Virus record (IMG/VR): IMGVR_UViG_3300049740_000919 | Span: 1 to 37,373 of that record | Direction: 5' to 3' (one strand) | From: a virus | DNA length: 37,373 nucleotides | Shown: positions 4,083 through 28,600 of the stretch, one piece after another | How the letters are laid out: the number at the start of each line of letters is the position of its first letter | Position numbering within the stretch: the stretch's first letter is position 1 | Notes under the pieces: generated by a model | Told to the model about the DNA's origin: nothing | The model's input: the letters and a program-made list of their open reading frames with translations, nothing else | The model's database searches: none | Made by a program: the position numbers and the translations under genes

Positions 4083-4799
4083 ATGGCATTACCATCACTG
4101 GCGACACCAACTTATGAAACTGAGTTGCCATCTACAGGAAAGAAGATCAAGTATCGTCCTTTCCTAGTCAAAGAAGAGAAGGTTCTCCTCCTCGCTACCG
4201 AGAGTGAAGATAGGAAAGAAGTAAAGGAAGCAGTCAAGACTATTGTCAAGAGTTGTGTCCTATCTAGAATCAAAGTAGAAGATCTTGCATCGTTTGACCT
4301 GGAGTTTTTGTTTCTGAAGATCAGAGCAGCATCTGTTGGTGAAGATGTTAACATGAAGATCACATGTCTAGATGACAATACGACCAGAGTTGATTATACT
4401 TTAGACATCTCAGATGTAAAGGTTACTATCCCTGAGGGTCACGATAAAAAGATCGAACTGACTGACAAGGTTGGTATGATCATGAAGTATCCTGGACTAG
4501 ATGAGTTCGTTGACTTGACACTACTTGGAACTGATTTGGATGATCCTGATAAAGTATTTCAAACCGTTGCCAGGTGTATCGAACAGATCTATGAGGGAGA
4601 AGACGTATATGATGACAGCACTACTACTTTCAAAGAAAAGATACAGTTCGTGGAGTCACTGACACAAAAACAGTTTGAAAGTGTGAAAAAGTTTTTCACA
4701 ACGATGCCTGTGTTGCGTCATGACTTTACTATAACTAATCCAACGACTGGTGTCGAATCGTCCTACACGTTGGAGGGTTTACAATCTTTTTTCGAGTAG
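4083..4799 (+). CDS. 26: Baseplate hub assembly protein gp26
   Basis: A 238-residue protein (T4 gp26 is 208). The N-terminal motif TGKKIKYRPFLVKEEKVLLLA, followed by an acidic-basic helix and TIVKSCVLS, is typical of the T4 gp26 family. A mid-protein LEFLFLKIRAASVGE stretch is also characteristic. In T4, gp26 is needed with gp51 to assemble the central hub. It starts seven bases after the preceding stop and is followed at once by the gp51-like gene, the same pair order as in T4. The C-terminus (PVLRHDFTITNPTTG) looks beta-rich. Confidence 0.85.
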   Translation: MALPSLATPTYETELPSTGKKIKYRPFLVKEEKVLLLATESEDRKEVKEAVKTIVKSCVLSRIKVEDLASFDLEFLFLKIRAASVGEDVNMKITCLDDNTTRVDYTLDISDVKVTIPEGHDKKIELTDKVGMIMKYPGLDEFVDLTLLGTDLDDPDKVFQTVARCIEQIYEGEDVYDDSTTTFKEKIQFVESLTQKQFESVKKFFTTMPVLRHDFTITNPTTGVESSYTLEGLQSFFE

Positions 4800-4801
4800 G
4801 C

Positions 4802-4981
4802 ATGTTCTATAATACTTTGGAGAACTATTTTAGAACAAACTTCTCTCTCATGCAGCATCATAAATACTCTTTGACTGAGATTGAAGGAATGATGCCTTGG
4901 GAGAGAACAGTTTATGTTTCTCTTCTGAACCAGTGGATTAAGGAACAAGAAGAAAAAATAAAAGCTCAACAAAATGCCTGA
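4802..4981 (+). CDS. Small gp51-like hub assembly protein
   Basis: A 59-residue ORF beginning MFYNTLENYFRTNFSLMQHH and ending KIKAQQNA. The segment EIEGMMPWERTVYVSLLNQW resembles the short PWER-type helix seen in small phage tail-assembly proteins that follow a larger chaperone-like gene. Position right after gp26 matches T4 gene 51, and cyanophage proteins at this position are called gp51, although T4 gp51 is much longer (249). It starts two bases after the gp26 stop and overlaps the next gene by eight bases, so the three are likely coupled. It lacks any membrane segment. Confidence 0.6.
   Translation: MFYNTLENYFRTNFSLMQHHKYSLTEIEGMMPWERTVYVSLLNQWIKEQEEKIKAQQNA
4859..4866 (+). promoter_or_regulatory. 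Possible internal late promoter
   Basis: A CATAAATA octamer inside the gp51-like gene, about 108 bases upstream of the large lysozyme-domain gene. It differs by one base from TATAAATA. It may be coincidence in coding sequence. Confidence 0.25.
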
Positions 4982-7577
4982 GGTTGATCCTAAAAGGAAA
5001 AAGAATATAAAGGAACTCATCGACCGTATGGGGAAAGGGTTCGATGAGAACTTGCTGGATCCTCTTGTAGATTCTATTGTTAATGAACCTGAGAAACCAC
5101 TACCAAGTGAGAATAAGGTCAAGGCAAAGGAGATAAAGTATAAAGTCATTGAGGTTGCACCCACTGGTCAGGGTGAAGATCTTGCTTCTTTTTTTGGTGC
5201 TAAAATTGGAGAGTCATTCTCCATGGCAGCAAAGGCACGTCGTGCTGACAAAGGGTTAGAAAAAAAACCTGCATTCTTCTTAAAGAAAGCATTAACTAAT
5301 CAGTTTGGTGGTGACTTAGTAAACAGAACTAAAGGATATCTTTCTGGGAGTCCTGATGACACACAAGATCCTGCACTAAGCAGGAGTCAAAGGTTCACTG
5401 CGAGTGTGCAACCTTTTATGGGTGAGCAGGGACCACTCCCTGCACCAGTCCAAGGACCAGAGAGAACTGGTATCCGTGGTGCATTTGATAAAGTTGCAGA
5501 ACAATTTGATCAACTGATTGCTCTTAAGAAAAATAAGGCAGAGCAATCTAAGGTAGCAAATGAGATCCAACAGGTAGAAGTTAAGGAAGCTACCGAAGAG
5601 ATCACAGAGAACAATGAGTTAAAGAAAAAGTCTACTGAAATCCAGAAAGATTTCATAGCATTTAATAGAGAGCAGCAAGGTGATGCTGAGATTCTTGAGG
5701 TAGAAACTACTGCCGAAGAAAGAGATCCAATGTCAGACACATTGGAGATTGATAATCGTCGCGATGATGATGAAGATGAAGAAGAAGATGATGATCGTGA
5801 TGGTGGTAATAAATTCACAGACTTCCTGGACTTTGGTCTAGATTTATTAGATGGTGGAAGTTACTTCGGTAAGTCTGCTAGTGTAGGTAGACGAGGTGCG
5901 GGTAGAGTTGTCCAAAGGACAGCACTACGACTTGGTGGCAGGAAATTAGCACAAAGAGGATTAGTTAAAGGTGCTCAATCAGTAGTCAGCAGAGCAGCAG
6001 GTGCTATCTCATCGAGAGCAGTTCTTGGATTCTTGCGTCCTATCTTCAAACGCATTCCTATTGTTGGTGGATTGATTGACTTTGTTGTGTCCCTTGCAAT
6101 GGGAGAACCATTAGGTAGAGCAGCAGCAAAAGCAATTGGTGCCACACTTGGTGGTGCATTAGGCACACTGATTCCTATCCCTGGTGTCGGCACGATTGCT
6201 GGTGGTATTGTTGGCGACCTAGTTGGTGGTTCTATCTATGATGCAGTCACTGGCGGCGGAAGTGGCATTGCTGCGACTGCAGGAACAGAGAAAGCACCAC
6301 CATCAGTTGATCCTGCTTCTGAAGAACCGCCAGAAAAACTAGCATCGGGTGGTGTTATGGCAGGTGAAGCAGGACCTGAGGCAGTGTTTAGTCTGAGTTC
6401 TACTGAAGGTAGGAAGGTAGTTGATGAAGTATCATCGGTTCAGAACACATCGATGTCTGCACTGCCATTCATCTTAGGTATCACACAGAATGTAACTAGT
6501 CTAATTTCTGGTCCAGCAAAACCATACATCCAACAAGAGATTGGAACATTAGAAAGATTGTTTGGCATTGCAAAGTTTAACGTCAGTGAAGTTGTCGGCA
6601 AGGGTATCGATGCTGTTAAGTCTGTTGGTAAGAACGTAGGTATTAACATCCCTGGAACAGGAGGTGATGCTGAAGGTGTAAAATCACAAGAATCAATGAC
6701 TAGCAATAATCCTGGGGCGGTAACCCCAGTCAATGTTCCATCTGGTGATGTAAAAGAGAGAGCGAAGGTTGCATTCCAATTCTATAAGTCAAAAGGATTC
6801 TCAGATTCTGGTGCTGCTTACATGGTTGGTAACTTGATGCAAGAATCTACATTAAATCCTGCTGCTAATGGAGATGGTGGACGTGCATGGGGTCTAGCAC
6901 AGTGGAGAGATGATGCTGCATCTGGCGCAAGATGGATTAAGTATAAAGAATGGGCAGCAGCAAACAGCAAAGAACCTGGAGACTTCTTTGCACAGTTAGA
7001 ATATACTATTGTTGAGGGCAACCAATACGACTCTGGTCTGAAAAAAATGAAAGGTAATAATGTCCAAGAACATATGCAATTCGTAAAAGCATATGAAGGT
7101 TACAGTGAAGAGGGTAGTCGTTTTGGATATGCTCAAGACATTCTTAATAATGTTGCGGAGTATAAAGGAGCAACTACTCCATCGATGACTCCCCCACCAT
7201 CAACACCTGTCCCTGCAAGTGAAAGTAGTGATGAAGATGGAGGACACAATGCAGAAAGTCCTGGACCAGTAGGTGCAACACCTGAATTGATAGGACCACC
7301 AGCACCAACAGTTGCTGCAGCAGAAAATGGTGGGCATACACCAGAGAGTCCTGGTCCTGTGATTCAGGCACCACCAATGCCAGCAGCACTCGCAGAATCT
7401 AACAAGAAAAGTCATATAACTGTTCAACCTATCATTTATGCAGGAACTTCTACACCTATTGGTTACCGAAAAAATATTGATACAGGTGGTGGACATATGG
7501 CTCGCTTCTTTTATGATAAAACAGGAGAGAAAACAACTCTTGCTGACTTGAAGGCAGCGAGGTTACAAAATAACTGA
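4974..7577 (+). CDS. Tape-measure-like tail protein with lysozyme-like domain
   Basis: An 867-residue protein in several parts. Residues 68-145 form a domain shared with the next large gene. Residues 165-250 are charged and probably coiled coil. A very acidic patch lies at about 260-277. Residues 330-430 are hydrophobic and glycine-rich (GATLGGALGTLIPIPG). An ASGGVMAGEAGPEAVFSL motif near 460 is a signature often seen in phage tape measure proteins. Residues 590-735 look like a phage tail lysozyme domain: MVGNLMQESTLNPAANGDGG with E624 as likely catalytic Glu, then GLAQWRD. The C-terminus has two 30-residue Pro/Gly repeats. It probably sits in the tail lumen or hub and cuts peptidoglycan on DNA entry. 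The T4 counterpart may be gp29, but I cannot show that. Confidence 0.75.
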   Translation: MPEVDPKRKKNIKELIDRMGKGFDENLLDPLVDSIVNEPEKPLPSENKVKAKEIKYKVIEVAPTGQGEDLASFFGAKIGESFSMAAKARRADKGLEKKPAFFLKKALTNQFGGDLVNRTKGYLSGSPDDTQDPALSRSQRFTASVQPFMGEQGPLPAPVQGPERTGIRGAFDKVAEQFDQLIALKKNKAEQSKVANEIQQVEVKEATEEITENNELKKKSTEIQKDFIAFNREQQGDAEILEVETTAEERDPMSDTLEIDNRRDDDEDEEEDDDRDGGNKFTDFLDFGLDLLDGGSYFGKSASVGRRGAGRVVQRTALRLGGRKLAQRGLVKGAQSVVSRAAGAISSRAVLGFLRPIFKRIPIVGGLIDFVVSLAMGEPLGRAAAKAIGATLGGALGTLIPIPGVGTIAGGIVGDLVGGSIYDAVTGGGSGIAATAGTEKAPPSVDPASEEPPEKLASGGVMAGEAGPEAVFSLSSTEGRKVVDEVSSVQNTSMSALPFILGITQNVTSLISGPAKPYIQQEIGTLERLFGIAKFNVSEVVGKGIDAVKSVGKNVGINIPGTGGDAEGVKSQESMTSNNPGAVTPVNVPSGDVKERAKVAFQFYKSKGFSDSGAAYMVGNLMQESTLNPAANGDGGRAWGLAQWRDDAASGARWIKYKEWAAANSKEPGDFFAQLEYTIVEGNQYDSGLKKMKGNNVQEHMQFVKAYEGYSEEGSRFGYAQDILNNVAEYKGATTPSMTPPPSTPVPASESSDEDGGHNAESPGPVGATPELIGPPAPTVAAAENGGHTPESPGPVIQAPPMPAALAESNKKSHITVQPIIYAGTSTPIGYRKNIDTGGGHMARFFYDKTGEKTTLADLKAARLQNN
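5751..5808 (+). other. Segment coding for a strongly acidic linker
   Basis: Encodes DNRRDDDEDEEEDDDRDGG, with 13 Asp or Glu in 19 residues. It occurs after the predicted coiled coil of the lysozyme-domain protein, at the place where its paralogue has an arginine-rich segment. Confidence 0.8.
7233..7361 (+). repeat. Two copies of a 30-residue Pro/Gly repeat
   Basis: The coding sequence repeats with a 90-base period: EDGGHNAESPGPV starting at 7233 and ENGGHTPESPGPV starting at 7323, each followed by a proline-rich linker. It lies between the lysozyme-like domain and the C-terminal end of the protein and is probably a flexible spacer. Confidence 0.75.
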
Positions 7578-7583
7578 TAAATA
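7576..7583 (+). promoter_or_regulatory. Late promoter-like octamer before the M23-domain gene
   Basis: GATAAATA (one mismatch to TATAAATA) overlaps the TGA stop of the lysozyme-domain gene and lies about 82 bases upstream of the next ATG. The 88-base gap also holds a small hairpin (GTGAAA at 7589-7594 with TTTCAC at 7599-7604, loop CAAA) of unknown meaning. Confidence 0.45.
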
Positions 7584-7665
7584 CATAGGTGAAACAAATT
7601 TCACTATACAATTACACAAATTCCGAAAAAAAATCTCCGCAAAAATTTAAAGAAAAAGGTCGAGC

Positions 7666-9870
7666 ATGGCAGCAGGCACCGAGAGTTACGAAGCACCACA
7701 ATATGGAAATCTCGCTGGTGCTATTGGCGGGAAGATTGGTAGTGCTCTCACGATGGCAGCAACAGCAAGACGCCAGCGTGATGGAGAGAAAGAAAGATTA
7801 ACTGATGAAATTACTTCACTAAACAAAAAAGAAGATAAGACTGAAGACGAGAAGCAGCAACTAAAAGATTTACAGAAGAGACAAGAAGATTTAAATTCTC
7901 AAGGATTTGGATTTATTGGAAAGAAAGCACTGGGCACTGAGTTCGGTGGAGATCTGAGAAGAAGAACAAAAGGTTTCTTCCAGATGAGTCCTGATGATCA
8001 GGATGATCCAGCATTAGATAAGAAGAAAAGATTTGAAGCACTCCTGCGAGCACAACCAGCAGGTAATAAACAAACACCACCTGGAGCACCACCAGAGGCA
8101 CCAAAAACATCTCAAGATGGTGGTGTATTAGGATCATTTGCTACTGGTATCATTGAGAAGATTAGTCTTCTTTCTAAGAAAGTAGATGATCTAAAAAACG
8201 TAGAACAGAAAGATCAGACACCTAAAACTGTAGTAAATCTCAGTAAAAATGTAGGTAGTATCAGAAGGTTCTTCTCTAAGAACAATAAGATTGAAGAAGA
8301 ACAAGTAAAGATTTCTGAGCAGCAACTGGAGCAGCAGAAAGAAGATTCTGCTGATGCAAAAAAAGCAAGAGCAGAATCAATAGCAGAAGGTAGAGACAGA
8401 TCTGCTGGCAATAGTGGTATTGACAATAGCAGAGAGGGATCCACTCTCAAGGGACTAGGTGGTGGATTGCTTGACCTTGCTGGTGATCTGCTTGGTTTTG
8501 GTGGTCGTAGGCGTCGTGGTGGCAGGAGAAGACGTGGTGGTCGCCGAGGGGGTGGTATTGGTTTAGGTATGTTCGGCAAGCGTGGCAGGCGCAGAAGCGC
8601 GTCTCGTGGCGTGAGTAGAGGTAGGACTCAATACACTGCTCCTGTCGGACCACAACCGATGAACTCTGCTACACCATGGGCAGCAAAAGGTGCTGGTGAT
8701 CGTGGTGGTCAATTTGGACAGGGTGGATTTGCTCCAAGAATGGAGTCATCACCAATAAAGTTTGCAAGTGGTGGTATTGTTGACAATCCAACCACGGGAC
8801 AGGCAGTTATCCCAAAGAACAAACTGACACAAGCAGTCAAAACTAATCAAGATAATGTAAAGAAAGCAGATCCTTTTGCTAAGGTGATGCAACTACCTAC
8901 CATGGCAGCAGGTGCTCTGCTTATGTCAACGGTTGGTAATGTTATCAACAACATGGGTGGAGTTTCCAAACTATTCCGTCCAGTTTTGTCGAGGATGTTT
9001 GTTCCTGCTGCTACAGCATTCGGATTGCCTGCTAATCTAATTACTGCATTCTTTGGTAGTGGTGCTTCAGCGAAAGGACTCGGAGGTATCGGCAAAGGTA
9101 AAGGTAAAGGTAAAGGTGGTGGATCTAATGGTGGTGGTAGTGAAACAGCACCTGGAGTCACACCTGGATCTACTATAGGTGGAGGAACAATTAGTGGTGG
9201 TGGTTCTGTTGATGGATATGGAATCTCATCACCTTTTGGTCCTCGTAATACTGGTATTCCTGGTGCTTCTACTAATCACTTAGGCGTTGACTACCGCACA
9301 CCACAAGGAACCAAACTCTCTATCAAGAGACCAGGAAAAGTTATTGCTACTACTGCTCCTGCTATTGGTAACAATGGTGAAGTATATATTCAGCATGATG
9401 ATGGATCTAAGTCTAGATACTTACACCTGAGTGCTGTAGCAGTGTCTGCTGGTCAGCGTGTTGATGCTGGAGCATTCCTTGGTAAAACTGGTGGAGAACC
9501 TGGAACTCCTGGTGCTGGTCCTACTAGTGGTGCTCACCTACACTTTGAATACTATCCAGATGGATCATCTGGTCCTGTTGATGGTTCTGGTGTTGCATCA
9601 TCTGTCTTTAGTGTTGGTGGGACCCTCACACCTACTGCTCCACCAACAGCAGTTCAACCAACTGCTGTAGCAAGTCCATCAGCACAGACACCCCAACCTG
9701 CTGCAGCAACACCAGAATCAAATCAACCAGCAACCCTAGAACCAATTGTTCTTCCTGCTCCTGCAGCACCAGCGCCAGCAGCAGCACCTGATAACTCAGG
9801 CAATGGTGGCGCTAATCTCCCAGTGAGAAACCCTAACGCATCAATGTCATTACTAGGAGGTATGCCGTAA
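7666..9870 (+). CDS. Tape-measure-like tail protein with M23 peptidase domain
   Basis: A 734-residue paralogue of the gene before it. Residues 13-128 match the shared N-terminal domain (FIGKKALGTEFGGDLRRRTK). Residues 30-75 and 200-245 look like coiled coil. Residues 279-330 are extremely arginine-rich. KFASGGIVDNPTTGQAVIP near 365 matches the ASGG motif of the paralogue. Residues 525-640 are an M23 (LytM-type) metallopeptidase: H538 and D542 in NHLGVDY, and H624/H626 in AHLHFEYYPDG give the HxxxD and HxH zinc ligands. The C-terminus is Pro/Ala-rich. Such domains cut the peptide cross-links of peptidoglycan. The start is ATG at 7666; a GTG frame beginning at 7589 is a shadow. Confidence 0.78.
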   Translation: MAAGTESYEAPQYGNLAGAIGGKIGSALTMAATARRQRDGEKERLTDEITSLNKKEDKTEDEKQQLKDLQKRQEDLNSQGFGFIGKKALGTEFGGDLRRRTKGFFQMSPDDQDDPALDKKKRFEALLRAQPAGNKQTPPGAPPEAPKTSQDGGVLGSFATGIIEKISLLSKKVDDLKNVEQKDQTPKTVVNLSKNVGSIRRFFSKNNKIEEEQVKISEQQLEQQKEDSADAKKARAESIAEGRDRSAGNSGIDNSREGSTLKGLGGGLLDLAGDLLGFGGRRRRGGRRRRGGRRGGGIGLGMFGKRGRRRSASRGVSRGRTQYTAPVGPQPMNSATPWAAKGAGDRGGQFGQGGFAPRMESSPIKFASGGIVDNPTTGQAVIPKNKLTQAVKTNQDNVKKADPFAKVMQLPTMAAGALLMSTVGNVINNMGGVSKLFRPVLSRMFVPAATAFGLPANLITAFFGSGASAKGLGGIGKGKGKGKGGGSNGGGSETAPGVTPGSTIGGGTISGGGSVDGYGISSPFGPRNTGIPGASTNHLGVDYRTPQGTKLSIKRPGKVIATTAPAIGNNGEVYIQHDDGSKSRYLHLSAVAVSAGQRVDAGAFLGKTGGEPGTPGAGPTSGAHLHFEYYPDGSSGPVDGSGVASSVFSVGGTLTPTAPPTAVQPTAVASPSAQTPQPAAATPESNQPATLEPIVLPAPAAPAPAAAPDNSGNGGANLPVRNPNASMSLLGGMP
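8500..8628 (+). other. Segment coding for an arginine-rich basic region
   Basis: Encodes blocks such as GGRRRRGGRRRRGGRRGGG and then KRGRRRSASRGVSRGR, about 43 residues with roughly half Arg or Lys. In a protein of the tail lumen it could bind DNA, or pair with the acidic segment of the paralogue. Confidence 0.8.
9091..9120 (+). repeat. GGTAAA hexanucleotide repeat
   Basis: Four near-perfect copies of GGTAAA (the first GGCAAA) encode a Gly-Lys run that continues into a Gly-rich linker just before the M23 domain. Confidence 0.8.
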
Positions 9871-11264
9871 TGTCAAACTCAGTTAAGAAATTTGAACCTC
9901 AGAAAGTAGTCATTGCTGACGTTGATGGCGTCCAGTATGATGTTACTAAAGCAGTTGGAATGTTCTCTTACTATGAGGATATCTATCAACCATTTGTTAC
10001 AGCAAACATGCTGATGGTTGACAGTGGACAAAACTTTATTGGTAACCTACCTATACAAGGTGGAGAGGAAGTTATTGTTAAACTAATCAACGTTAGAAAG
10101 GAAGCAGTAGAATATAAGATGAGGGTTCAGAAGATCGTAAACAGATCTGTTGAAAGGAACATGCAATATTATACTTTAGTGCTTATATCTAAGGAAGGTC
10201 TGGAGAATGATACTTCTAGAGTAACAGAAAAATATAAAGCAAACTCAGAAGCAATTGTTAAGGATGTTCTTAAGAATGTATTGAAGACTGATAAAGAATT
10301 GTTTGCAGAAGAATCTCAATTCAAGATGAGTATATTCCCTAATGGTAAGAAGTGCCATGCTTTGGTGCAATCATTGATGTATAAGACAGTATCAAAGTCA
10401 ACCAAGTTCAACAAAGGTGGTGGTGTTGATGATACTAAGAGCGAATCAGAACTAGGTGGTAATAATAAGAAGAAGTCATCAGGAACAGCAGGTTATCTAT
10501 TCTTTGAGAACAAAGATGGATTCATCTTTCAATCTATGGATAGACTATGCTCAGATGGGACAGATTCTTTCGGCGGCACTCCACCAGTAGAAACATACTA
10601 CTCACGTCCATCTGCTGGTATGCCACCTGATCAGGTATACTATAACATTGAGAACTATGCATTCGATGGTGACATCGACATGTCGGAGAAGTTAAACAAC
10701 GGAATATATTCTACACATATGTGTTACTTTGATATCTCTTCTCAAAAGTATGAAGAGTATACCTATGACATGGCAAAGACATTCAATAACATGTCGCATC
10801 TTGGTAGTCAGGTAACACTAGCAAAGTATCAAAAACAATTAGCATCAAGACCTAGCAGAGTTATGAGTATCCTGCTAGACCATGAGGCATGGTATAGCGG
10901 AGAAGATGTTGCTAACCCAGAAGAGGGTGGTGATACACAGTTCCCAGACTATGCAAAATATTATACTGCACAGTCTATTGGTAGAAGATACTTGATGGAT
11001 ACTCACCGAGTTCAGATTGAGATCGCTGGCAACTCAGACCTGAAGGTAGGAGATAAGGTTAAGATTATGCTACCTAACATGGTAGCAGAGCAACTGAGAG
11101 AGGAACAACCATATGATGAGGAGGCAAGTGGCACTTATCTAATTGCTGCATTGTCTCACAACTTTTCATTCATTGTTGATAGTGGAGAACCTAAGTTCTT
11201 CACCAACTTGGAACTCATTCGTGACACCATGGGTATTAAAGAATACACCTCCAAGGTTAAATAA
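9870..11264 (+). CDS. 27: Baseplate hub protein gp27
   Basis: A 464-residue protein (T4 gp27 is 391). The beginning (KVVIADVDGVQYDVTKAVGM, then YYEDIYQPFVTANMLMVDSG) is the typical hub entry: two beta-barrel domains that form the trimeric ring carrying gp5. A middle charged insertion (about residues 175-205, KFNKGGGVDDTKSESE) is probably a loop. FFENKDGFIFQSMDRL at about 211 and the C-terminal ISHNF-like strands also fit the family. A strong Shine-Dalgarno AGGAGGT (9855-9861) is placed eight bases before the ATG, and the ATG overlaps the stop of the M23 gene by one base. It is followed directly by its structural partner gp5. Confidence 0.82.
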   Translation: MSNSVKKFEPQKVVIADVDGVQYDVTKAVGMFSYYEDIYQPFVTANMLMVDSGQNFIGNLPIQGGEEVIVKLINVRKEAVEYKMRVQKIVNRSVERNMQYYTLVLISKEGLENDTSRVTEKYKANSEAIVKDVLKNVLKTDKELFAEESQFKMSIFPNGKKCHALVQSLMYKTVSKSTKFNKGGGVDDTKSESELGGNNKKKSSGTAGYLFFENKDGFIFQSMDRLCSDGTDSFGGTPPVETYYSRPSAGMPPDQVYYNIENYAFDGDIDMSEKLNNGIYSTHMCYFDISSQKYEEYTYDMAKTFNNMSHLGSQVTLAKYQKQLASRPSRVMSILLDHEAWYSGEDVANPEEGGDTQFPDYAKYYTAQSIGRRYLMDTHRVQIEIAGNSDLKVGDKVKIMLPNMVAEQLREEQPYDEEASGTYLIAALSHNFSFIVDSGEPKFFTNLELIRDTMGIKEYTSKVK

Positions 11265-11283: not shown

Positions 11284-14217
11284 ATGGATCAATCTTTATC
11301 ATCACTGTATCCCATACACCAGATTGGTTCTGACGGATTCTCCTGGTGGATCGGTCAGGTAGAGACCAACAAAAAGGACGACCCTAAAAGGTCTGGTAGA
11401 TATCGTGTGCGTATCATTGGACAACACCTGAAGACAGGTGACAATGCTACATCTACACAGGAACTACCATGGGCGCACATCATGATGCCTGTGACTACAC
11501 CGTTCATTGAAGGTGGCACTGGTGGTGCATCTCCTGGACTGCAACGTGGTTGTTTTGTTGTTGGATTCTACCTGGATAATGACAAGCAGAAACCTGTCAT
11601 CATGGGTTCTATTGGTGGTGTCAAAGGTGCTACTAAAGATTCATTCCAAGATGACAATCCAAGTGCTCCACTAAACTTCAAACCTGTCATTGATCCTAAG
11701 ACTAATCCAAAGCAAAATCGATCTGCAGATACCCAGAGTGGTAAGAACAAGAGCGGTGCTAACACAGACAAGGGTGTTGTTGATGCAGATAAAGCAGATC
11801 TGAAAGATGGTGCTCCACCTATATTATTAGCAGCATATGCAAAGCACAGTGAAACTAACCCCACTGGTGGTAAGAGTTGTATTGTTGTTGCTAACCCTAA
11901 CTGTGGACAAGAGAATAATCTTCGTAGTGGTCTGACTAGAATCGTTGGTGATCTTCTTGCTGCTAACCAAGCATCAGGAGGAAACATTGGTGACTTCTAT
12001 GTCAGTAAGATCAATGGTCTTCTTTATAATGGTGTTGGACAAGCACGATATCATATTAGTCGTGTAGTCAGACTAGTCAAGAGTTTCATTGCTAGAGGAA
12101 AGACAGAGATCACAAAGGCACTGCGTGGTGCTATTGATTTTCTGAATAAAACTCTACTAACAACAGAGGCAGTAGTAGGTAACACTGGACCACTCGCAGA
12201 TCCAGATAAAGCATTCAAACCTATCACAGAGAAGAGCAACAGACTCAAGACAGTTAAGAAAATCTTTGATGATATCTTTGGAGCATTAGGATGTAGTATC
12301 GCAGACATCACTGATACTATTGCACGATTCATCACTGATCTGTTGATGGGATTCATTCAAGATGTATTCAATAATGCTGCATGTTTTATAGACACACTAG
12401 TTGATGGCATTCTGAATGAGATCCTTGCTAAATTTGATGAACTTGTCAATGTAATTCTTGCACCTATCCAAGCAATTTTAGAAGCAATTGCTGCACCATT
12501 GAACTTCATTGGTGGAATCATCAATAAGTTCATGAAACTACTGGGAATCACCTGCACAGGACCTGGACAGAAGTGTGAACCAATCCAACAGAAATGCACA
12601 GACTGTGGTAACGAAGAAGATGACTCGCTTGATAAACTGCTGAAGGCACTTGAATCAGGAGTCGGCGATGAGTCTGCATTTATTTGTGATGAAGCAAAAC
12701 AAGTTCCTAGTAAAAAACCTACCGAAATTTCATTTGTTGGTGGTGTTCCAGATGATCTCTCACCATCTCCAGAAAACACACCACCATCTGGTGATGCTGT
12801 TATCGACTTCCCAATTCCAGAGATAGATCTTGACGAAGATTTTGACGATGATCCTATTGATGAAGACAATTTACCTGATGACGGATCAATTATATTCCCT
12901 GATCCTGATGATGATGGTTTGCCTACCCTACCATTGGGCAATGAACCATTCATTGAAGTATACACAGAGAGTAATCTATACAATGAAGGAGACACTATCG
13001 TTTACAATCTAACGGGTGTCAACATTCCTGACGGAACTCAGTTTGATTATGAACTGTCTGGTCCTACTATCACACAGGGTGACATCGATGGGTCTCTCAC
13101 GGGAGAGTTCACTGTTACAAATAATACTGCTACAGTTTCTGTTGTTCTTGCAACAGATGAGGAAGTAGAACAAGCACCAGAACTACTGATCTTTACTGCT
13201 ACTACAAAAACTCCAATCATATTAGATACAGATAATGATGGAACAACAGAAGAATTTCCATTAACGACTTCTACTGATGTTGCAATTGATAGTGATGTTA
13301 ATGATCCAGTATCACCAGATCCATCACAGGTTGCTGTTTGGAATCTTACTACAGATAAGAATTCATATCAGGAAGGAGAAGATGTTCTAGTCACAGTAAC
13401 TACACAATATGTTGCTGATAATACTGAGGTTGATTACTACATTATTGGTAGTGGCATTACAGCAGAAGACTTTGTAAGTAGAACACTATCTGGAACTCTA
13501 GTCATTAAAAATGGTGCTGCTGCATTTGTCATTGGTATTGAGGATGATAGCACTGTTGAGGGTATCGAGAATGCAACTATTATTCTTGCAAGCAAAGGGG
13601 TTAGCACATCATTTAGCATCACTGAAGCAGGTGGTGAGGAAGATGAAGTAATAGATGATAATAATGATGATGACTTCACAATCAAGAAACCAATTGCTGG
13701 TGATATTGTTACTGATAACACTGGTGCTATTGTAGAGATTCCTATTAAAGTTCCTGGTGGACCATATCAGACTGCACCTCAGATCATCATCACTGGCGAT
13801 GGATATGGTTCTGGTGCTGTTGCTCTGCTCAATGATAAAGGGTTTGTTACTGAAGTCCGAGTCACTAGACAAGGTATCAACTATGTCCCTAATACAGCTG
13901 ACGAAAACAATCTACAATGTGTCGTTGATTCTTTCACTCTGCTATCTCCTGGTAGTGGATACACTGAAGCACCCGTTGTTCTGATCAATGGCGTGAAAGA
14001 TATTGCAGAGGCAATTATCGATCAAAGAGGATTTGTCGTCAGTATTAGAACACTTGACAGAAGCAAGCGTTATACAGACATGCCTACTGTCACACTATTA
14101 GGTGGTGGAGGCGGTGGTGCTCGTTTCTTACCTAACATGGTTTGCCTAGATAGTAATGAACTTGAGCGTAAAGGTTACGCCAAGATTGGAACTGGATCTT
14201 ACGTTGATTGTCCATAA
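11284..14217 (+). CDS. 5: Very long gp5-like baseplate spike protein without visible lysozyme domain
   Basis: A 977-residue protein; T4 gp5 is 575. Residues 1-130 form an OB-fold domain typical of gp5 (GFSWWIGQVETNKKDD, GRYRVRIIG, ELPWAHIMMPVTTP, GCFVVGFYLDNDKQKPVIMG). I see no T4-type lysozyme. Instead, residues about 330-425 are long hydrophobic helices, followed by a cysteine cluster (C424, C431, C438, C441), an acidic linker, two Calx-beta-like domains (about 556-660 and 683-790) and a C-terminal region (826-960) with repeated GDGYGSG and GSGYTEAPVV strands. It may form the central spike with gp27. A GTTAAATAAG sequence at the end of gp27 could be a weak late promoter, and AGGAG at 11269-11273 is the likely ribosome site. 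Confidence 0.78.
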   Translation: MDQSLSSLYPIHQIGSDGFSWWIGQVETNKKDDPKRSGRYRVRIIGQHLKTGDNATSTQELPWAHIMMPVTTPFIEGGTGGASPGLQRGCFVVGFYLDNDKQKPVIMGSIGGVKGATKDSFQDDNPSAPLNFKPVIDPKTNPKQNRSADTQSGKNKSGANTDKGVVDADKADLKDGAPPILLAAYAKHSETNPTGGKSCIVVANPNCGQENNLRSGLTRIVGDLLAANQASGGNIGDFYVSKINGLLYNGVGQARYHISRVVRLVKSFIARGKTEITKALRGAIDFLNKTLLTTEAVVGNTGPLADPDKAFKPITEKSNRLKTVKKIFDDIFGALGCSIADITDTIARFITDLLMGFIQDVFNNAACFIDTLVDGILNEILAKFDELVNVILAPIQAILEAIAAPLNFIGGIINKFMKLLGITCTGPGQKCEPIQQKCTDCGNEEDDSLDKLLKALESGVGDESAFICDEAKQVPSKKPTEISFVGGVPDDLSPSPENTPPSGDAVIDFPIPEIDLDEDFDDDPIDEDNLPDDGSIIFPDPDDDGLPTLPLGNEPFIEVYTESNLYNEGDTIVYNLTGVNIPDGTQFDYELSGPTITQGDIDGSLTGEFTVTNNTATVSVVLATDEEVEQAPELLIFTATTKTPIILDTDNDGTTEEFPLTTSTDVAIDSDVNDPVSPDPSQVAVWNLTTDKNSYQEGEDVLVTVTTQYVADNTEVDYYIIGSGITAEDFVSRTLSGTLVIKNGAAAFVIGIEDDSTVEGIENATIILASKGVSTSFSITEAGGEEDEVIDDNNDDDFTIKKPIAGDIVTDNTGAIVEIPIKVPGGPYQTAPQIIITGDGYGSGAVALLNDKGFVTEVRVTRQGINYVPNTADENNLQCVVDSFTLLSPGSGYTEAPVVLINGVKDIAEAIIDQRGFVVSIRTLDRSKRYTDMPTVTLLGGGGGGARFLPNMVCLDSNELERKGYAKIGTGSYVDCP

Positions 14218-15296
14218 TGTCACAAGAGAAAGCAACAGAACAAAAAGCAAGTTCTGAACAGAAGAAACTACAAAAAAATGGTCCAGCAAGACCTGAAGGT
14301 GCTGATGCGCCCGAAGAAGGTCAGTTTAGTAATGAAGATTTTAATGTAATTGCCACCAAACATGGGTGGACAATGGGAACCTATACAAACAAGGATGGAT
14401 CTACAGGTTTCATTTTAACTAATGGTCAATCGATGTTCCACTTCGATGTGAATGGTAACATCGTCATGGCAACAGGTAAACCTGGACAGTCAGGTTGTGG
14501 TGGTAAGGTAGTCATTCATGCTAAAGATCACCACGAAAAAACTGACACCTATGCTCTACATGTTCGTGGTAATGATGATGAGCAGACTAAAGAAGAAGAT
14601 GGAAGCACTACAAAGACATCACCATATTCTATATACGTTGAAGGTGATGTTGCCATCGAATCACAAGGTGGTGATGTTGGAATCAAAGGAGATAACATTA
14701 CACTAAATGCAGTCAATAATTTAACTTTACGCGCAGGAGAGAATATTAACATAGAACCTGCTGAAGGTCAAGGTAAAGTAAATGTTACTGCTGCTGATAT
14801 TAATATGGATTCATCATTCACTAGATTTACTACTAGTGGTGGTTTTTATGTTGATGGATCAGGTGAGTTTTCAGTCAACCAGAAAGATCAGATAGGTGCA
14901 TCAACATCTTTCAATACTATTGGAACAGTCAACCAAGTCATCAAAGGTGACTATAATTTAAGAGCAACTGGTAATCTACAACTAGAATCAGACTTTGGTC
15001 ACTTGTTATTCAAATCTACTAAAGGTGGTATGGCAAGAATCATCAATGGTGATGATACTAGCACTGTAAGAGGTTTGAAGGATTTGACTGTCATTGGTAA
15101 GTCAGTGAACCTTGATGAACCACCTGCAGCATATAAAATGAACCTAGGTTCCTCATTGAAAGGTTCGCTTGAAATTAAAGGTGCATCGTTCTTTAATGCT
15201 ACATTTGTTGGAGCATCGATCTTTAACAGCACCAACGTCAACATCGTTGGTAAGACTGCTGTCACCATGACAGGTAAATCAATTTTCTTGAATTGA
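14217..15296 (+). CDS. Beta-rich protein, probable detached spike needle
   Basis: A 359-residue protein starting at the ATG that overlaps the gp5 stop (TAATG). An in-frame TTG nine bases earlier is less likely. Residues 1-45 are charged and disordered. From about 120 onward the sequence is short alternating strands: VAIESQGGDVGIKGDNITLN, LTLRAGENINIEPAEG, KVNVTAADINMDSS. This pattern is that of gp5 C-terminal or VgrG-type beta-helical needles, where every few residues the chain turns. In T4 the needle is the C-terminal part of gp5 itself. Here the gene lies directly after gp5, so I infer a split spike. No metal-binding tip motif (HxH) is seen at the end. Confidence 0.65.
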   Translation: MSQEKATEQKASSEQKKLQKNGPARPEGADAPEEGQFSNEDFNVIATKHGWTMGTYTNKDGSTGFILTNGQSMFHFDVNGNIVMATGKPGQSGCGGKVVIHAKDHHEKTDTYALHVRGNDDEQTKEEDGSTTKTSPYSIYVEGDVAIESQGGDVGIKGDNITLNAVNNLTLRAGENINIEPAEGQGKVNVTAADINMDSSFTRFTTSGGFYVDGSGEFSVNQKDQIGASTSFNTIGTVNQVIKGDYNLRATGNLQLESDFGHLLFKSTKGGMARIINGDDTSTVRGLKDLTVIGKSVNLDEPPAAYKMNLGSSLKGSLEIKGASFFNATFVGASIFNSTNVNIVGKTAVTMTGKSIFLN

Positions 15297-19670: not shown

Positions 19671-22600
19671 ATGCCGCTAACAAGACTTGATAATCTGTAT
19701 TCAAGTAAGACTGGTAAGTATCTTTACGTATCACCAGATGACTTTAATGCAACTGATGAACTAGACAATAGAGGTAACTCACCTTTACGTCCATTCAAGA
19801 CAATCCAGAGGGCATTTATTGAAGTATCGAGATATTCGTATCTCCCTGGTGCCAACAACGATAGATTTGACCAGTTCAGCATCATGCTGATGCCTGGTAA
19901 TCACTATATTGATAACCGTCCTGGTCTTGTAACAGAGACTGCTGTTGAAGCACGTTATTTTGATGCTGGAAATCTTCTTGAGGGTAACCGTCAGGAAGTT
20001 ATTGATCGTTCTGTAGCACAAGTATCTGTTCAGCATCCTGATTTCTATTATCCTGGTGATCCTCAGACTGGTGCATGGTCTCGCTTCAAAGATGCATATC
20101 GTCTGATTCAGAAAAACAGAGACGAACTGATTGATAGAGCAACTGCACAGATTCCTGTTGCTCACCCTGACTTTGTATATCCTGGTGACCCAGTAGAAGG
20201 ACTCTGGTCACGTTATAAAGATGCATATCGTCTGATCCAACTTAATAAGGATCTTATCGCTCAAGATGCGTTCGACTTCATGAACGGATCTTCTCCACCA
20301 TCTCCTCTTCCTAATGGTTACGGCACTTCATGTGTTCGTGACATCGGAATCATGATCGATTCGATCGCTCTCGATGTTCATGAGGGTGGTGGTAACAAGT
20401 ATACTAGAAAGTATATCACCAACTACTTTAATGATGCAGGCACTGATTGGACTGGAACTGTTGACCGTTACACTCCATCTGATGCAACTTATGATCCTGC
20501 AACTGGTCTAACTGTAATTACATTTGCACAACCGCATAGCATTACTGGTAACGATCAAGTTTACTTTGATGAAGGTGCTCTAACCTTCACTTGTGCAATG
20601 GATGGTGATCAGGCTGAGAAGTCCTATCCTCGTGTTGGTATCGATCCTTTCGCACTGAGAGGTTATGATGTAACTGCAACTACTGCAAACAGCATCACCA
20701 TTCAAGGTGGTATCTCTGGTCCTAACAAGTATTTCCAACCAAGTGCTGCAGACTACAACCCTGTAACGGGAGAGATGGTTGTCACTGTTGGACAACATGG
20801 TCTAGGTGTTGGCCGCGGCGTTGTTCTAGAAGATAACTCCTTCACCTTCACTTGTGCTCTCGATGGTAACGTCGAGCAGAAGACATACCCACGTCCTGGA
20901 CAAGATCCATTCGCAGGTAAGTCTATTCAAATTGCTGCAGTTGGTTCTACATCACACACTGCAACTGGTTCTACCTACAATACATCAACTGGTATTGTTA
21001 CCCTAGATATTGCAACTCATGGTTTCTCTACTGGTGACTACATCCTGGTTGAGGATGAGTCCCTGTCATACACTTGTGATCTAGACGGTAACGTTAGTGC
21101 TAAGGCATATCCTCGTCCTGGATACGATTATCCATCAGGTCGCTGGATGGAAATCACTGTTATCGATGCTGATACCATCTCTATTAACATTGGTTCTTCT
21201 GAGTATCAAGGTGCTCACACCTTTGTGAGTGCAACTGCTGATGGTGTCAAGCGTCAAGATGGCACTTTTACCATCAACGTGGGTATTTCTTCTGACACCT
21301 CTGCTCATACCTTCATTAGTGCAACTGCACAAGCAATCAAGCACGAACCACAAACTGCTCACACATTTGTAAGCGCACTTAATAACGGTCTTCGTGTTGA
21401 TAAGACTGGTGGTCTTCGTGGCGAGGAAGCATCTGCACTGGTTGCTTTCTCGAAAGCAGTTGAGTTGATGAAGCAGGCGATCACCAACAACTACACTTCT
21501 ACATCTGGTCCTGGAAATGAGTATCAGGATCTAACAGTTGTTACTGGCGAAGCAGTTTATGGTGACGGTAACGGTGATGTTACTAACACTGACCCCACTG
21601 CATGTTCTGATGTTCAGACCTTCATTGACAACCTCTATGCTACTATTGATAGCATCTTCAATGATACTGATCTAAGAGTTAACAATGGATCATTCCTCCT
21701 CAGCAACGTTCTCCCTGCTGAATCTGTATCTGATAAGATTTCTGCTGGTCATGCTAAGTGTAAGCGTGACACAGGATTTGTTCTAGATGCACTTTCACTA
21801 GACGTTCATGAAGGTGGTGGTAACCGCTACACCAGAAAACTTCTCCAAAACTATTTCGACGCTACAGGTAATAACTGGGTAGTCAATGGTCTACAAGGAG
21901 AGACTGCAGAATCTTTAACTGCATTCTCTACACTCTTCACTCAGATGAAGAAGGCAATCACTAACCAATTGTCTTTCAAGGATATTGGCATTACTCCTGG
22001 TGATGCAATCTATGGTAACAGCAACAACCCTCAGGAGAATTTACCTTCTGGTAACCCTGCTGCATGTGCTGACATTCAAACCCAGATTGATACCCTAGGT
22101 GCAATCGTTACTCAAATCATTAACGATGAGAACCTAACCAATCTGCCTGAAGAGACTCTATCTGATGTTATCTCTGCTGGTCTTGCTAAGTGTAAGCGTG
22201 ACGCTGGTATCATCACTGACGGTCTGATCAATGACCTTCGCACAGAAGGTAATGCAAACACGATTACTAATACAAAAGCATACTTCGATCGCTTCGGCAA
22301 TCCTATTGCTAATGGTCTTCTGGGTGAAGAATCAGAATCTATCACTGCATTCAAAGGCATTGCAACATTTGCTAAGCAAGCAGTTACTAATCAACTGTTC
22401 TTTAAGGATCTGACTATCTCTCCTGGTCCTGCATATGCTGGTGCAAATACTCCTGAAATTCCAAATCTAGCATCAGGTAATGCTGCTACTTGTGTAGATG
22501 TTCAGGCAACAATTGATACTCTTATTGGAATCCTGACTGATGTTATTGAAGTTGGTAACTTAGATGAACTAGCAGCAATCAAAGTTACAGGTGTTCTTCC

Positions 22601-25600
22601 TTCATTCAATTATAACCAAGCACTAGAAGAGTGGCAGGACAACTCCATTGTTGATCTAGCAAACCCTGACAACGTTCTTTATAAGTTTAATGCTGCCGAT
22701 GGTGGTTGTATTGTTCCTAGAGGTTGTTCACTGATTGGTTACGACCTGAGAAGAACAGTTGTTCGTCCTCTGTATGTTCCTGATCCTGCTGATACTTCAC
22801 AACCAAGAACTTCTATCTTCAACCTAACTGGTGGTTGTTACATCTGGCAGTTCACTATTAAAGATGGTGACCTATCTGCACAATCTCCTCTGTATGATGC
22901 ATCTGCTGGTGTTGGTAAGGTTTACTACAAGAAAGGTTCAACTGATCTTGCAATTCCTGAGTATTCTCACCACAAAATCTGCATCATGGAGTATGCAGAT
23001 TCTAAAGATCTTGACAACTACTATGACAAGGTAGGTAAATCATTCCAACAGTTCCAACCAACTATCGATGATGGTGGACTGGAAGCACTGGTTCAAGAAA
23101 ACAGAATCGTTGGTCCTCTGTCTGACAGCAGAACTATCGAAAGTATCAGAATTGATGACTCTGCAACCTTCAGTGGTAATGCATCTAATAGCACAATTCT
23201 GAATAATGTTACCAATGCTGAGAGTCTTGAAGTTGGATATGAGATTACATCACCTGATGTCAGTGTTGTTATCTCTCCAAACACTAGAATTGAGAGCATC
23301 TCTGGCACTACAGTTACGCTCAACCAATCGATTTCGGGAACTGGTAACGTATCATTCCTTGCATCCTTTGGTTATGCTAACATCACAATAAACACAAAGA
23401 TTGACCACGGTTACTTCGAGGGTCAGTATGTTGCTATCATCAACTCTGGACTGTCTGATGAGATCAACGGAACGTGGAAAGTTACCTCAATCGATGGTAA
23501 TAATCCTAAAGTATTTAAGTATGAAGTATACAACAATACCGCAGCATCTCTTGGATTAGTCTCTGGACAGACATATCTGTCAGGTGAAGTCGGCGGAGTT
23601 AGCACAAATGCGGTAGTTCTTGCGGAAATTGACTCTGTTGAGTCCGCATCTCCGTATGTTTTCAACTGCTCAATCCGCTCTACCTGGGGTCAGTGCGGCA
23701 TGTGGGCGGATGGATCCAAGGCAACTGGATTCAAGTCAATGGTCGTAGCTCAATATACGGGAGTTAGCCTTCAAAAAGATGATCGTGCATTCATCCGTTA
23801 TGATGCATTAACTAACACTTGGAACCAAGCATCACTTACTGACGCATTTGCTACCATTCCTTACCATACTAAGGGTGATGCATACTGGAAAGATGACTGG
23901 AGAAACTTCCACATCCGTGCTTCGGATGACTCTTTCGTTCAGTGCGTCTCGGTCTTTGCTGTTGGTTTCTTCGATCACTTCCTGATGGAAAGTGGTGGAG
24001 ATATGTCCATCACGAACTCCAACTCTAACTTTGGTAATACATCACTTCACTCTGTTGGTTTCAAAGGATTCTCCTTCAACCAAGATAAGGGTGGTTACAT
24101 CACTGACATTGTTCCTCCTGAGGTTGTATCTACAAGCAACGAAGTTATCAACCAGTGGTATACTCTAGATGTTCCTGCATCTAACTCAAGAACTAACCAT
24201 ACCAGACTGTATCTTGCTGGTGACGATATTGAAAATCCAGATGATCGTCCAGCATCTTCTATCAATGGATACAGAATTGGTGCTAAGTCTGGTGAAACTC
24301 TATCTGTTGATCTTGCACGTTATGCAATTGAACCAACTGGTCCTATTGAGTTCTCTCAGACTCTGGAACCAAATGGATTCAAGTCCTGGACAGTTGGCAT
24401 TGAGACACTGACACCTAACAGTGCAAACGTTGACAACTATGCACAGGATGCTGCTAATCAGATTGAAGATAACAAGGAACTGATTCAAGCAGAAGGTTAT
24501 CAGTATATCATTGCTAAGTATCCTGAACTACTCACCAAACCAAACATCACGATTGGTAAGTGTGAAAGAGACATCGGATACTTCGTCGATGCTGTTGTAA
24601 ATGACTTGAGAATTGGTGGTAACATTAATTCTATTCAGGCAGCAGAAGGTTATTATATTTCTGGTAACCTTGAGTATATTACTGGAGAACTCAATGAGTC
24701 TATTGATGCATATGATTATGTAAAAAATATCATGATCGCAGCAATGCGTAACTTTGACTATCTGGTTAGAGATGCTGAGACATTTAGCGGTTCTGCAATT
24801 GTTAATGTTCCCTCTACTCAGGGTCTGATCATTGGTATGAGAGTTGTTGAGTATGATCCTAGCGATTTTACCAACGGTCTCCTTAATTCAACTGCAACAC
24901 CAATCTACACCAACGTTCCACAGAATGCGTTCATTAAGCAAATTATTAGTGATACTCAGATCGAACTTGGTATCCCTGGTGCTAAACTAACTGCTGGTTC
25001 TACTAGAAACGCTACTGGTAGTGTTAGTGGTGCATTCCTCTACTTTACTCTAGAGAATCCTGCATGGGCAAGTATCTCACCTTCTGTTGATCCTACGATC
25101 ACTCAAGATGCTCAAATTGATGGTAACGGCAATCCTTTACCTGAGTGTCAGAACATTGCAACCACAATCGAAGGTTACTTCAATGAAATCTTCCTGGTTC
25201 TGAATACTGGTTACACTGCACTTGGTAGTAGAGAAATTGATGCCTTCAATGGTATCATGGATAACAAGCGTTTCATTGCTGCAGAAGCAGTTTACAGAAT
25301 CGCTAACGATGCTGCATATGCTGGCACCAAACTGGGTCAAGGTTTACTAGCATCGACTGGTGAGACCATCCAGGATGCTTGTGTAGACGACGTTGAGAAC
25401 ATTCTTGGTCAGATTGCTTACAACGTTAAGTTTGGCGGCAACAACAGAGTCTATGATGCAGCAGAACTGTATCTGGTTGGTGCTCATGTTCAAGGTGAAG
25501 AATCCGAATCTATTGCTGCATTCAACTTGGCAAGAGACTTGGCAATTAAAGCAATGCGCCAGGAAACAATTACTGTTGAGGGCGATCATGGTCTGACTCA

Positions 25601-28600
25601 GGTAATTGACAATGGAGTTCCACCTGAGTATGATCAGAATGGTCAACTTGTTACTCCTCCTTGTGCAGATGTTGCACTTACAATCTCCACGTTAACGTCA
25701 CTTGTCACAACTGCTATCAACGGCGGTTCGATTGGTAACAAGACTCTACCAGCATTCAGTGCTGTAACAAGAGTTGAACCAACTTCTGATCTGACTGGTC
25801 TATCTGCTCGTGCAACTCTATTCACTCTGGCAACATCTGGAGTCGTAGGTAACCCTAACCCACATGATCTAGAGACTGGAACACCTGTAAGACTGGTTCC
25901 ACGTCCTAAAGCAGGAACGTTCCCAGACAAGCGTGTTATCAGACTACCAAAAGGTTTCGATACTAATACCAAGTATTATGTTATTGCTCCTGGTAGAAAC
26001 CTCTATCCTGAGAACTTCTCTGTAAGCAACAGTGTTATCACTGTTACTGAGGCAGCAGGAACTAGCTTCTCAACTGCAAACTCAACTAGAGCAGCTGTTG
26101 CTGGAATTTATCGTTCACTGGTTGCACAACCTAAGATTGATACTGATGGAACTGCACTCGCAAGAGGAACTGGTCTGCGCTACAACTTAACTGTTAATGC
26201 AGATGGTTCTATTGAGTTTGGCAATGCAGTAAACAGTCTCGATGGAATCGCTAATGGTGGTTCTAGATACGAAATCGGCGACATTGTTGTTATCAGTGAT
26301 GGTCAACTTGGTGGATCTGGTGCTCCTGATCTGGAGATTGAGATCACTGCTGTATCCCCTGCAGAATATCCTGGTGTATTCGATGGCACTGAGACTAACA
26401 AGTTGATGCTTGCAACCTCACCTGAGAACGCAGCAGCAGGTATCTACATGTATTCTTCGGAGACTGACTCCGTTGATTCTCAAGTTGAGATTGTCATTAA
26501 CAGATTTGTCCTTGATACTAAGTATGATCTCCATAAGTATAAGTCCAACGTTGTTGGTGCTTCCGAGATTGAGACAAACGTTGCACACATCTTTGACGTT
26601 CCTGCTCCTAACACTACTCCACAGATAGTATTTGTTAGAATTGCAGATGACATTCAAGGTTCTACACTACCTCAACTAAGTGGATCTGCATCATCTATCT
26701 CAACACAGACTGAATACTTTGTTCGCTATGTTTCTAACAAGCGTGTCACACTTCACCTAACTGCAGCAGATGCAGAGTCTGGTGATAGAGCACTGACATT
26801 TGTTTCTGGAACAGGTAACAACTTCTATATCTACGCTAACAAGCGTCCATCCCCACTGAGATTTGACCCTGTATACAGCACTGCATCCAACCAAACTGGT
26901 CTTTGGTATCTGAATGTTGCTGACGAGTCTAGCAATGGAACTGCAGACTATAACCGTTACAGCATCCTATCTAGATTCCACGGTGGTAATGAATTAGCAA
27001 ACGACTTCCAGACTAAAACTGATCCTACTTTAGATACACGATATACTCGTGTTGAGGATAAACGTGAGAAGGAAGAACGTGTTTACAGAATGCGTTATGT
27101 TGTTCCTTCTTATCTGGAGACTGTTAGAGATCCTCTCAACGGTTTCGTTATCAAGACGAGAACTGATGACAAGCGTCGTTTGATTCCACAGAGAGTTCTA
27201 CTGAAACCAATTGCAGGTAACCCTAACAACGTTGCATCTTTCTACAACCCTCTAGGTTCTAACGAACAGATTGGTTTGAATAAGGATGAACTGATTGCTG
27301 ATCAGATCAGAACAATTGATCCATCTGTTGTTGATCTGCTACCTGAACAGCAAAATCTGTATGATCCATACCTGGCACCAAAAGTAATTGAGTTTGACTC
27401 TAAGATTGCTGCTACTATTCAGTCTGCTAGGAAGGTTGTTCCTGCTGGTCAAAGTGATGAGTTCATTGAACTGACTTTGTTCGATCACACAATCGTCAAC
27501 CAGTCTGTTAAGAACGAGATCTTCACTGTTGTTAGAACTAACTTCTTGCAAGGTGGATTCCTCCAACCAAATGCTACACAGTCTAATGAGAACAACAAAA
27601 TCACCTGGGAGACAGTTTCAGGTAATGCAGCATCTTCTGGTTCTGCATATCTTCAGGCATGGTTCAATGATCTTAACACAGCACAGATCTGTCTAGTCCT
27701 GAAAGATGTTCAAGGTGATATCTATTATGATCCTGCTGGTAATGTCACATTTACTCAGTCTAATGGTGCTAATGTTCAACTGACTGATGTTCCTAACTCC
27801 TTCGGTGAGGTTGCCGTAACGCCAAGAGATAAGTCACTTCGTGACAACTATCTCTACAGAGTAGAAGGTTCTAATGTTTACACCATCTGTCCTGGTGATA
27901 CAATCACTGATGACACTGGTCAGAACACTTACTATGTTCATAACATCGAAGATCAAGGTGACTTTGAAGATTGCTTCTACATCTTCGATATCGATACTCT
28001 GCAGAAGCGTATTCCTAACCAGCAAGATGGTATCTATTACCTGACTTGCCTACGTGGTAACATCTCTCCATTCCCAACTGGATCTGGTGTTGGTGAGAAC
28101 TTCAGAAACTTTAAGTTCTCTCAACCTATCTCTCAACTGTATCCTATCAACTACAAGAATGATCCTCTATGGTTCCAAGTTGATGGCACAACTGGTGTAA
28201 GAGATACATCTGTTGTTGATGTTCCTCAGACATTCTCTGCTGCTGACAACTACGTTCACGGTCTAGTTACCGTTAACGATGCTAAGGGTAGTGAGACCAA
28301 AGAGATGGTCGAAGACATTACCCGTAATACAGCACTTGATCAATACTCATACACTAATAGCACAACTGATGCTAGCAGTGGAGACATCATTGATAATAGA
28401 ATTCAGGCACAAGAGGGTAACGCAACCTCTGGTTCTGAAGATAGATTGATTCCTATCTCTGGCGACTCTCAGTTCCCAACAGAGCGTAAGCTTTACATCG
28501 AACTTAGAAGACCATCTATCGCAAGATCTGGTAACCACACATTTGAGTATCTTGGATTCGGTCCTGGTAACTACTCAACTGGTTTCCCACTGCGCCAGGA

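Follow-up and report, generated by a model that had tools for sequence, protein, structure and literature searches.

How very abundant cyanophages whose gp5 has no recognizable lysozyme cross the cyanobacterial wall is a question to which the locus described here offers a testable answer. The window, i.e., the whole stretch of viral DNA analyzed (37,373 nucleotides), comes from a T4-like cyanophage, with Prochlorococcus phage Syn1 and S-RIM44 as nearest relatives (~88% DNA identity across the locus); the phage is a marine cyanophage. Its genes follow the order gp53, gp48, gp2 and gp4 (minus strand), a tail-tube-like gene, gp26, gp51, two large genes (hereafter A and B), and the genes of gp27-like, gp5-like, and spike proteins (Table 1). 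Searches with Pfam and PHROG recognized no lysozyme domain in the gp5-like protein and found none in the spike-like protein; A and B have therefore probably taken over the cutting of the wall. In the gp5-like protein, residues 266–463 are helical, match tape-measure PHROGs, and lie roughly at the position of the T4 gp5 lysozyme. Further downstream, an ORF of 4334 aa (19671–32675) probably encodes a giant fibre protein.

The Two Genes and Their Products

Table 1. Features of the locus (window coordinates; residue numbers refer to the respective protein)
Feature	Position	Strand	Remarks
gp26-like baseplate hub/chaperone gene (T4_baseplate, PF12322)	4083..4799	+	Pfam E = 1.7e-68; syntenic anchor
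gp51-like small ORF, 59 aa	4802..4981	+	8 nt overlap with start of A; position as annotated gp51 in Syn1, S-PM2
ORF A, 867 aa	4974..7577	+	limits as in the initial annotation
A, shared N-terminal region, aa 63–315	5160..5918	+	HMM–HMM with B
A, Gly-rich hydrophobic segment, aa 350–430	6021..6263	+	many invariant columns; also in S-RSM4, S-SM1 A, Syn19 A
A, KLASGGVMAGEAGPEAVFS motif, aa 455–473	6336..6392	+	invariant: K455, A457–G460, G464–E469
A, phage tail lysozyme domain PF18013, aa 596–725	6759..7148	+	E624 codon 6843–6845, catalytic candidate
ATAAATAC, T4-late-promoter-like site	7577..7584	+	at stop of A, ~80 nt upstream of B
ORF B, 734 aa	7666..9870	+	limits as in the initial annotation
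B, shared N-terminal region, aa 9–315	7690..8610	+	BLASTP, HMM–HMM with A
B, KFASGG motif, aa 364–369	8755..8772	+	alignment of relatives
B, helical hydrophobic segment, aa 395–465	8848..9060	+	conserved; alignment and model
B, M23 peptidase domain, aa 537–634	9274..9567	+	H538 9277–9279, D542 9289–9291, H624 9535–9537, H626 9541–9543
gp27-like hub protein	9870..11264	+	phrog_350 'tail protein', T4-GC 15
gp5-like protein with OB domain	11284..14217	+	Gp5_OB 50–129 sole Pfam match; phrog_430 matches OB part only
Separate spike-like protein	14208..15296	+	phrog_4540

Judging from sequence comparison, A and B are beyond doubt paralogous by their N-terminal region. In BLASTP, residues 69–264 of A align with residues 15–257 of B (29% identity, E = 1e-20), and the HMM–HMM match covers residues 63–315 of A and 9–315 of B (probability 99.7, E = 1.7e-25). 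The shared domain reported in the initial annotation is thus found, over a longer region than was then delimited, together with its motifs GGDL.RTKG and SPDD..DPAL. A single family, phrog_5453, matches both proteins nearly full length (A, E = 1.5e-284; B, E = 4.8e-267). The K.ASGG motif said to recur in both is present as well (residues 455–460 of A and 364–369 of B) and is well conserved within each family. Around this motif the A–B profile match is not significant alone (HMM–HMM probability 4.7), and a search with the short motif of A found no others beyond close relatives.

Behind the common region the two proteins differ in layout. In A there follow a hydrophobic segment, the ASGG motif, the tail lysozyme, a Pro-rich linker, and a C-terminal beta domain; in B, a basic Gly/Arg-rich linker, the ASGG motif, a helical hydrophobic segment, the M23 peptidase, and a Pro-rich tail. 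The hydrophobic segment of A is a candidate membrane-active region. Both enzymes proposed earlier, a lysozyme-like domain with E624 in A and an M23 peptidase with H538, D542, H624, and H626 in B, are borne out. The PF18013 match of A is well above the cut-off (E = 4.1e-18, 66.4 bits against 28.2), the fold matches the phi29 gp13 lysozyme 3csr (Foldseek E = 9e-5), and E624 aligns with E45 of gp13; this residue is gone in one relative from the window's own group (L043), where the lysozyme domain is replaced. An NCBIfam search of A gave nothing further. The M23 domain of B is likewise above the Pfam cut-off (E = 5.3e-16, 59 bits against 28.7); its fold matches LytM/ShyA-type M23 enzymes, and the four zinc/catalytic residues of its HxxxD and HxH motifs are invariant in all 16 relatives. 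Outside the enzymes the AlphaFold models are poor (mean pLDDT 46 for A and 50 for B), and in both the longest helices, of ~60 residues, are of low confidence and do not amount to a clear rod.

Unlike the gp51/A and B/gp27 junctions, which overlap, A and B are separated by a gap (7578–7665) of 88 nt in the Syn1 group (89 in one locus) and 92 nt in S-PM2. The ATAAATA of the late-promoter-like site is kept in 18/18 aligned loci; across the whole window, motifs of this kind are not enriched. The gap with its conserved site hints at a separate dosage of B.

Distribution of the Pair and of Its Enzymes

The initial annotation knew of no T4 parallel with two such proteins side by side, but the arrangement is common among T4-like cyanophages. 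In 16 of the 19 examined whose slot is intact, gp51 and the gp27-like hub gene enclose two large genes (Syn1, S-PM2, Sf-CH11, S-SM1, Syn19, P-SSM2, P-HM2, S-N03, S-H34, S-B68, S-CREM2, S-SZBM1, S-SCSM1, S-MS29, S-SRM01, and ACG-2014h), and a single one in the other three (S-RSM4, S-CRM01, and ACG-2014j). The slot of S-RIM2 holds four ORFs.

The A–B paralogy can be detected by the N-termini in five lineages; in other slot pairs the HMM–HMM probabilities are 98.5 (S-SM1), 98.2 (cluster C), 96.9 (S-SZBM1), and 96.2 (Syn19), whereas none of six control segments from unrelated ORFs of the window reached a probability of 20; no relation between A and B was detected in P-SSM2 and P-HM2. N-termini from one genome resemble each other more than they resemble those of distant lineages, and the motif-bearing N-terminal region of the window is confined to the Syn1/S-PM2/S-RSM4/ACG-2014 group. 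In the tree of this group, in which support on the B side is weak and some of the ACG rows are long branches, A and B stand apart, and the ACG-2014h pair is placed beside S-RSM4 and ACG-2014j, not with A and B of the window.

The enzyme domains of the slot, as identified by profile, are swapped freely, and include lysozyme, GH19, glucosaminidase, M23, M15/VanY, or none. Naming A before B, one finds PF18013 and M23 in the window and in S-PM2, GH19 and phage lysozyme in S-N03 and S-CREM2, and glucosaminidase and VanY in S-SCSM1. In other pairs an enzyme is recognized in one member, namely B in S-SM1 (lysozyme/M15) and S-SRM01 (M23), and A in P-HM2 (VanY); the profile search recognized no hydrolase in either member of the P-SSM2 pair. 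The single genes carry M23 in S-RSM4 and a lysozyme in S-CRM01. Hence, the suggestion that one protein cuts the sugar chain and the other the peptides fits the predicted domains of the window, but as a rule for every pair it is ruled out by P-SSM2 (none), P-HM2 (VanY only), and S-RSM4 (M23 only). Since the hydrolases are interchangeable and sometimes absent, the cutting of both bonds is often, not always, realised. The slot proteins of S-RSM4 (L010, 5921–8923) and of another locus (L091, 5797–8409) carry the name '2OG-Fe(II) oxygenase family like protein'; for S-RSM4 this is probably wrong, because Pfam finds M23 only.

Tape-Measure Affinity of the Slot and Tail Length

The order of genes at the corresponding place in T4 is 51-27-28-29, and A and B, lying between gp51 and the gp27-like gene of the hub operon, occupy the tape-measure position. 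T4-type phages of other lineages have a tape-measure gene at this place. The slot protein is also downstream of gp51 in HTVC008M, Melnitz-1, and pf16. HTVC008M has the order gp26-gp51-(110 aa)-687 aa, the last being a 'putative tail tape measure' that matches tape-measure PHROGs with E down to 8e-12, and in pf16 the protein of the slot is similar to gp29 of Vibrio phage YC (E = 5e-8; HMM–HMM probability 92). When the N-termini of cluster B are pooled, their profile matches the HTVC008M protein with a probability of 86 (E = 4.7e-6), compared with no more than 0.8 for the controls. Matches to tape-measure PHROGs outside the enzyme domains occur in B of S-N03 (605–641), in the S-CRM01 protein (283–323), and in A of S-SCSM1 (590–644). 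For the window itself, the N-terminal regions of A and B have no significant direct profile match to tape measures, so that they are assigned through synteny and sister lineages. A and B do not match the gp29 family phrog_1283, a search of the cyanophage genomes with the T4 gp29 profile gave no convincing match, and the cyanophage records examined carry no annotation of a tape measure or gp29 homolog at the locus. A search with the S-N03 motif had as best hits outside cyanophages two proteins annotated as tape measures, with E of 0.01–0.1, too weak to count. The earlier description as tape-measure-like therefore stands for the slot and its sister lineages; as a plain label for A or B it is only tentative, given the short helices of low-confidence models and a relation of protein length to tail length that depends on one phage.

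These data suggest that A and B are probably duplicated descendants of a T4-type tape-measure-slot gene, residing in the virion tail and carrying wall hydrolases. Counting against this reading, a single gene suffices in S-CRM01 and S-RSM4, and P-SSM2 has a pair without recognized hydrolase.

A rival reading, in which A and B, like the TM4 tape measure with its hydrolase, would be true tape measures that bear the enzymes as passengers and jointly set tail length, deserves consideration but is on balance doubtful. It shares the slot position and the HTVC008M link, and there is a precedent in TM4, where a deletion of 114 aa in the tape measure shortens the tail by ~20 nm (PMC1796659). Among seven pair-bearing phages, which are not independent and whose published tail lengths are rough TEM values, tail length ranks with the length of A (Spearman 0.96, driven by S-CREM2) and less with B or A+B (0.68 each). 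S-CREM2 has both a tail of 418 nm and by far the longest pair of the seven (1565+1456 aa), but the extra sequence is largely low-complexity repeat, and without this phage the correlation of A with tail loses significance (r = 0.65, p = 0.16). The slope of tail length on A length, 0.34 nm per residue, is more than twice that of a helical ruler, so a simple helical-ruler fit fails. Nor does S-CRM01 fit the relation, as its single gene of 864 aa goes with a tail of 140–170 nm. Among the pairs seen, that of Syn19 ranks second in length (1548+1212 aa), while the P-SSM2 pair measures 529+516 aa; a ruler would imply a long tail for the former and a short one for the latter. The repeat in B of S-CREM2, the longest-tailed cyanomyovirus (L006, 11185–15555), is a strict 13-residue FxQSMGSVxPxx (aa 772–1310), with spacings mostly of 13 or 39 and interruptions of 105 and 28 residues. 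The rings of T4-type tail tubes are near 4 nm high. Thirteen extended residues span ~4 nm, near one ring, and one S-CREM2 repeat per ring is therefore conceivable.

It is unlikely, if worth weighing, that A and B are instead hub-lumen or pilot proteins akin to phi29 gp13 or to podovirus ejection proteins, with the tape measure elsewhere, the helical segment of gp5 being one candidate. phi29 gp13 is a lysozyme-plus-M23 tail-tip protein, and the lysozyme of A is of its type. In the same direction point a 915-aa 'Gp16' (9m7n), which matches the A lysozyme weakly and also the B M23, an M23 internal protein in the pre-ejectosome of cyanophage A4 (9k2v), and the tape-measure PHROG matches that fall in gp5 of several cyanophages. 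These gp5 matches are, however, short helical stretches, and gp5 length does not increase with tail length (812 aa in S-CREM2, ~893 aa in S-N03), so the gp5-like protein was rejected as a tape measure; moreover, a tape-measure-like protein occupies the slot in relatives.

Less plausible still is a two-component tape measure, in which three A and three B chains would form a sixfold bundle in the tube, their N-termini co-assembling and their C-termini delivering both cutters at the threefold hub. The within-genome matching of N-termini in each lineage, including the ACG-2014h pair, is what co-assembly of A and B would predict. In cyanophage A-1(L) the tape measure is a sixfold bundle of identical chains, of which three distal ends are modelled (PMC10966104); if the two-component arrangement were true, duplication would resolve the six-to-three mismatch that A-1(L) solves with identical chains. 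For heteromeric tape measures, the locus is in this respect a natural candidate.

Virion Location in Relatives and the Proposed Crossing of the Wall

That proteins of this slot are placed in the virion is supported by mass spectrometry in two other cyanophages: the slot pair ORF208/209 of S-CREM2 is represented in virions by 73 and 71 unique peptides (PMC10665884), and ORF213/214 of S-SCSM1 are likewise virion proteins (PMC9602691). The pair is absent from the virion protein list of S-SZBM1 (PMC9146016). For S-CREM2 and S-SCSM1, the authors proposed encapsulation in the capsid or a role in lysis or entry (PMC10665884, PMC9602691). That A and B are lysis endolysins contaminating virion preparations, as the name 'endolysin' of several homologs in RefSeq and PHROG might suggest, is very improbable in view of the hub-operon site with gp26, gp51, gp27, and gp5, the large common non-enzymatic N-termini, the strong virion signal in S-CREM2, and the pair of P-SSM2 in which no hydrolase is recognized.

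As probable descendants of the tape-measure-slot gene, A and B are most likely carried in the particle and serve to breach the wall of the host at injection. The shared N-terminal regions would assemble with each other in the tail or bind there to one partner in common, and both proteins would be packaged in the tube and leave through the hub on contraction. Once released, their hydrophobic segments may insert in or cross membranes, while the predicted domains would let A cut glycan strands and B peptides. The local hole in the wall, made in T4 by the gp5 lysozyme, would here be made by proteins of the tail lumen.

Several known systems share part of this scheme. T4 has the hub operon in common, as well as the steps of ruler and wall cutting, but there gp29 lacks an enzyme and gp5 has a lysozyme, whereas gp5 of the window has no recognizable one. 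The TM4 tape measure also places a wall hydrolase on a tail-lumen protein and aids DNA entry (PMC1796659); TM4 is, however, a siphophage with one gene and a proven ruler, whereas the window has two genes for which the ruler role is only proposed. phi29 gp13 (3csq/3csr) has a PF18013-type lysozyme with the catalytic Glu found in A, but it bears both enzymes on one protein, while in the window they are divided between two paralogs, each with a long N-terminal region. A functional precedent among cyanophages is A-1(L), in which the hub protein gp15 combines glycan-cutting and peptidase domains, whose activities were found by assay (PMC10966104), and the tape measure is a separate gene; the predicted enzymes of the window are on A and B. 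Also comparable are phrog_5453 and T4-GC 726/727/1041/1042 of Syn1 and S-PM2, which include both ORFs nearly full length, with locus and neighbours alike; the phrog_5453 annotation gives no function and does not state the split into two paralogs with different enzymes. The wall hydrolase borne by a virion or tape-measure protein is thus of a known kind, and what is new is the paralogous pair with exchangeable enzymes, apparently replacing the gp5 lysozyme. A literature search found no published description of such a pair, most subscription journals being beyond its reach. Proteins labelled 'hypothetical' or 'endolysin' in many genomes become candidates for a defined part of the tail.

Some A proteins carry N-terminal extensions. 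The one of S-PM2 (L002, 6966–10469) matches ADP-ribosyltransferase PF01129 over residues 66–218 (25.1 bits, cut-off 22.3), possibly a fusion between a tail protein and an enzyme that is injected, and extensions are also found in three other loci (L043, L056, and L059).
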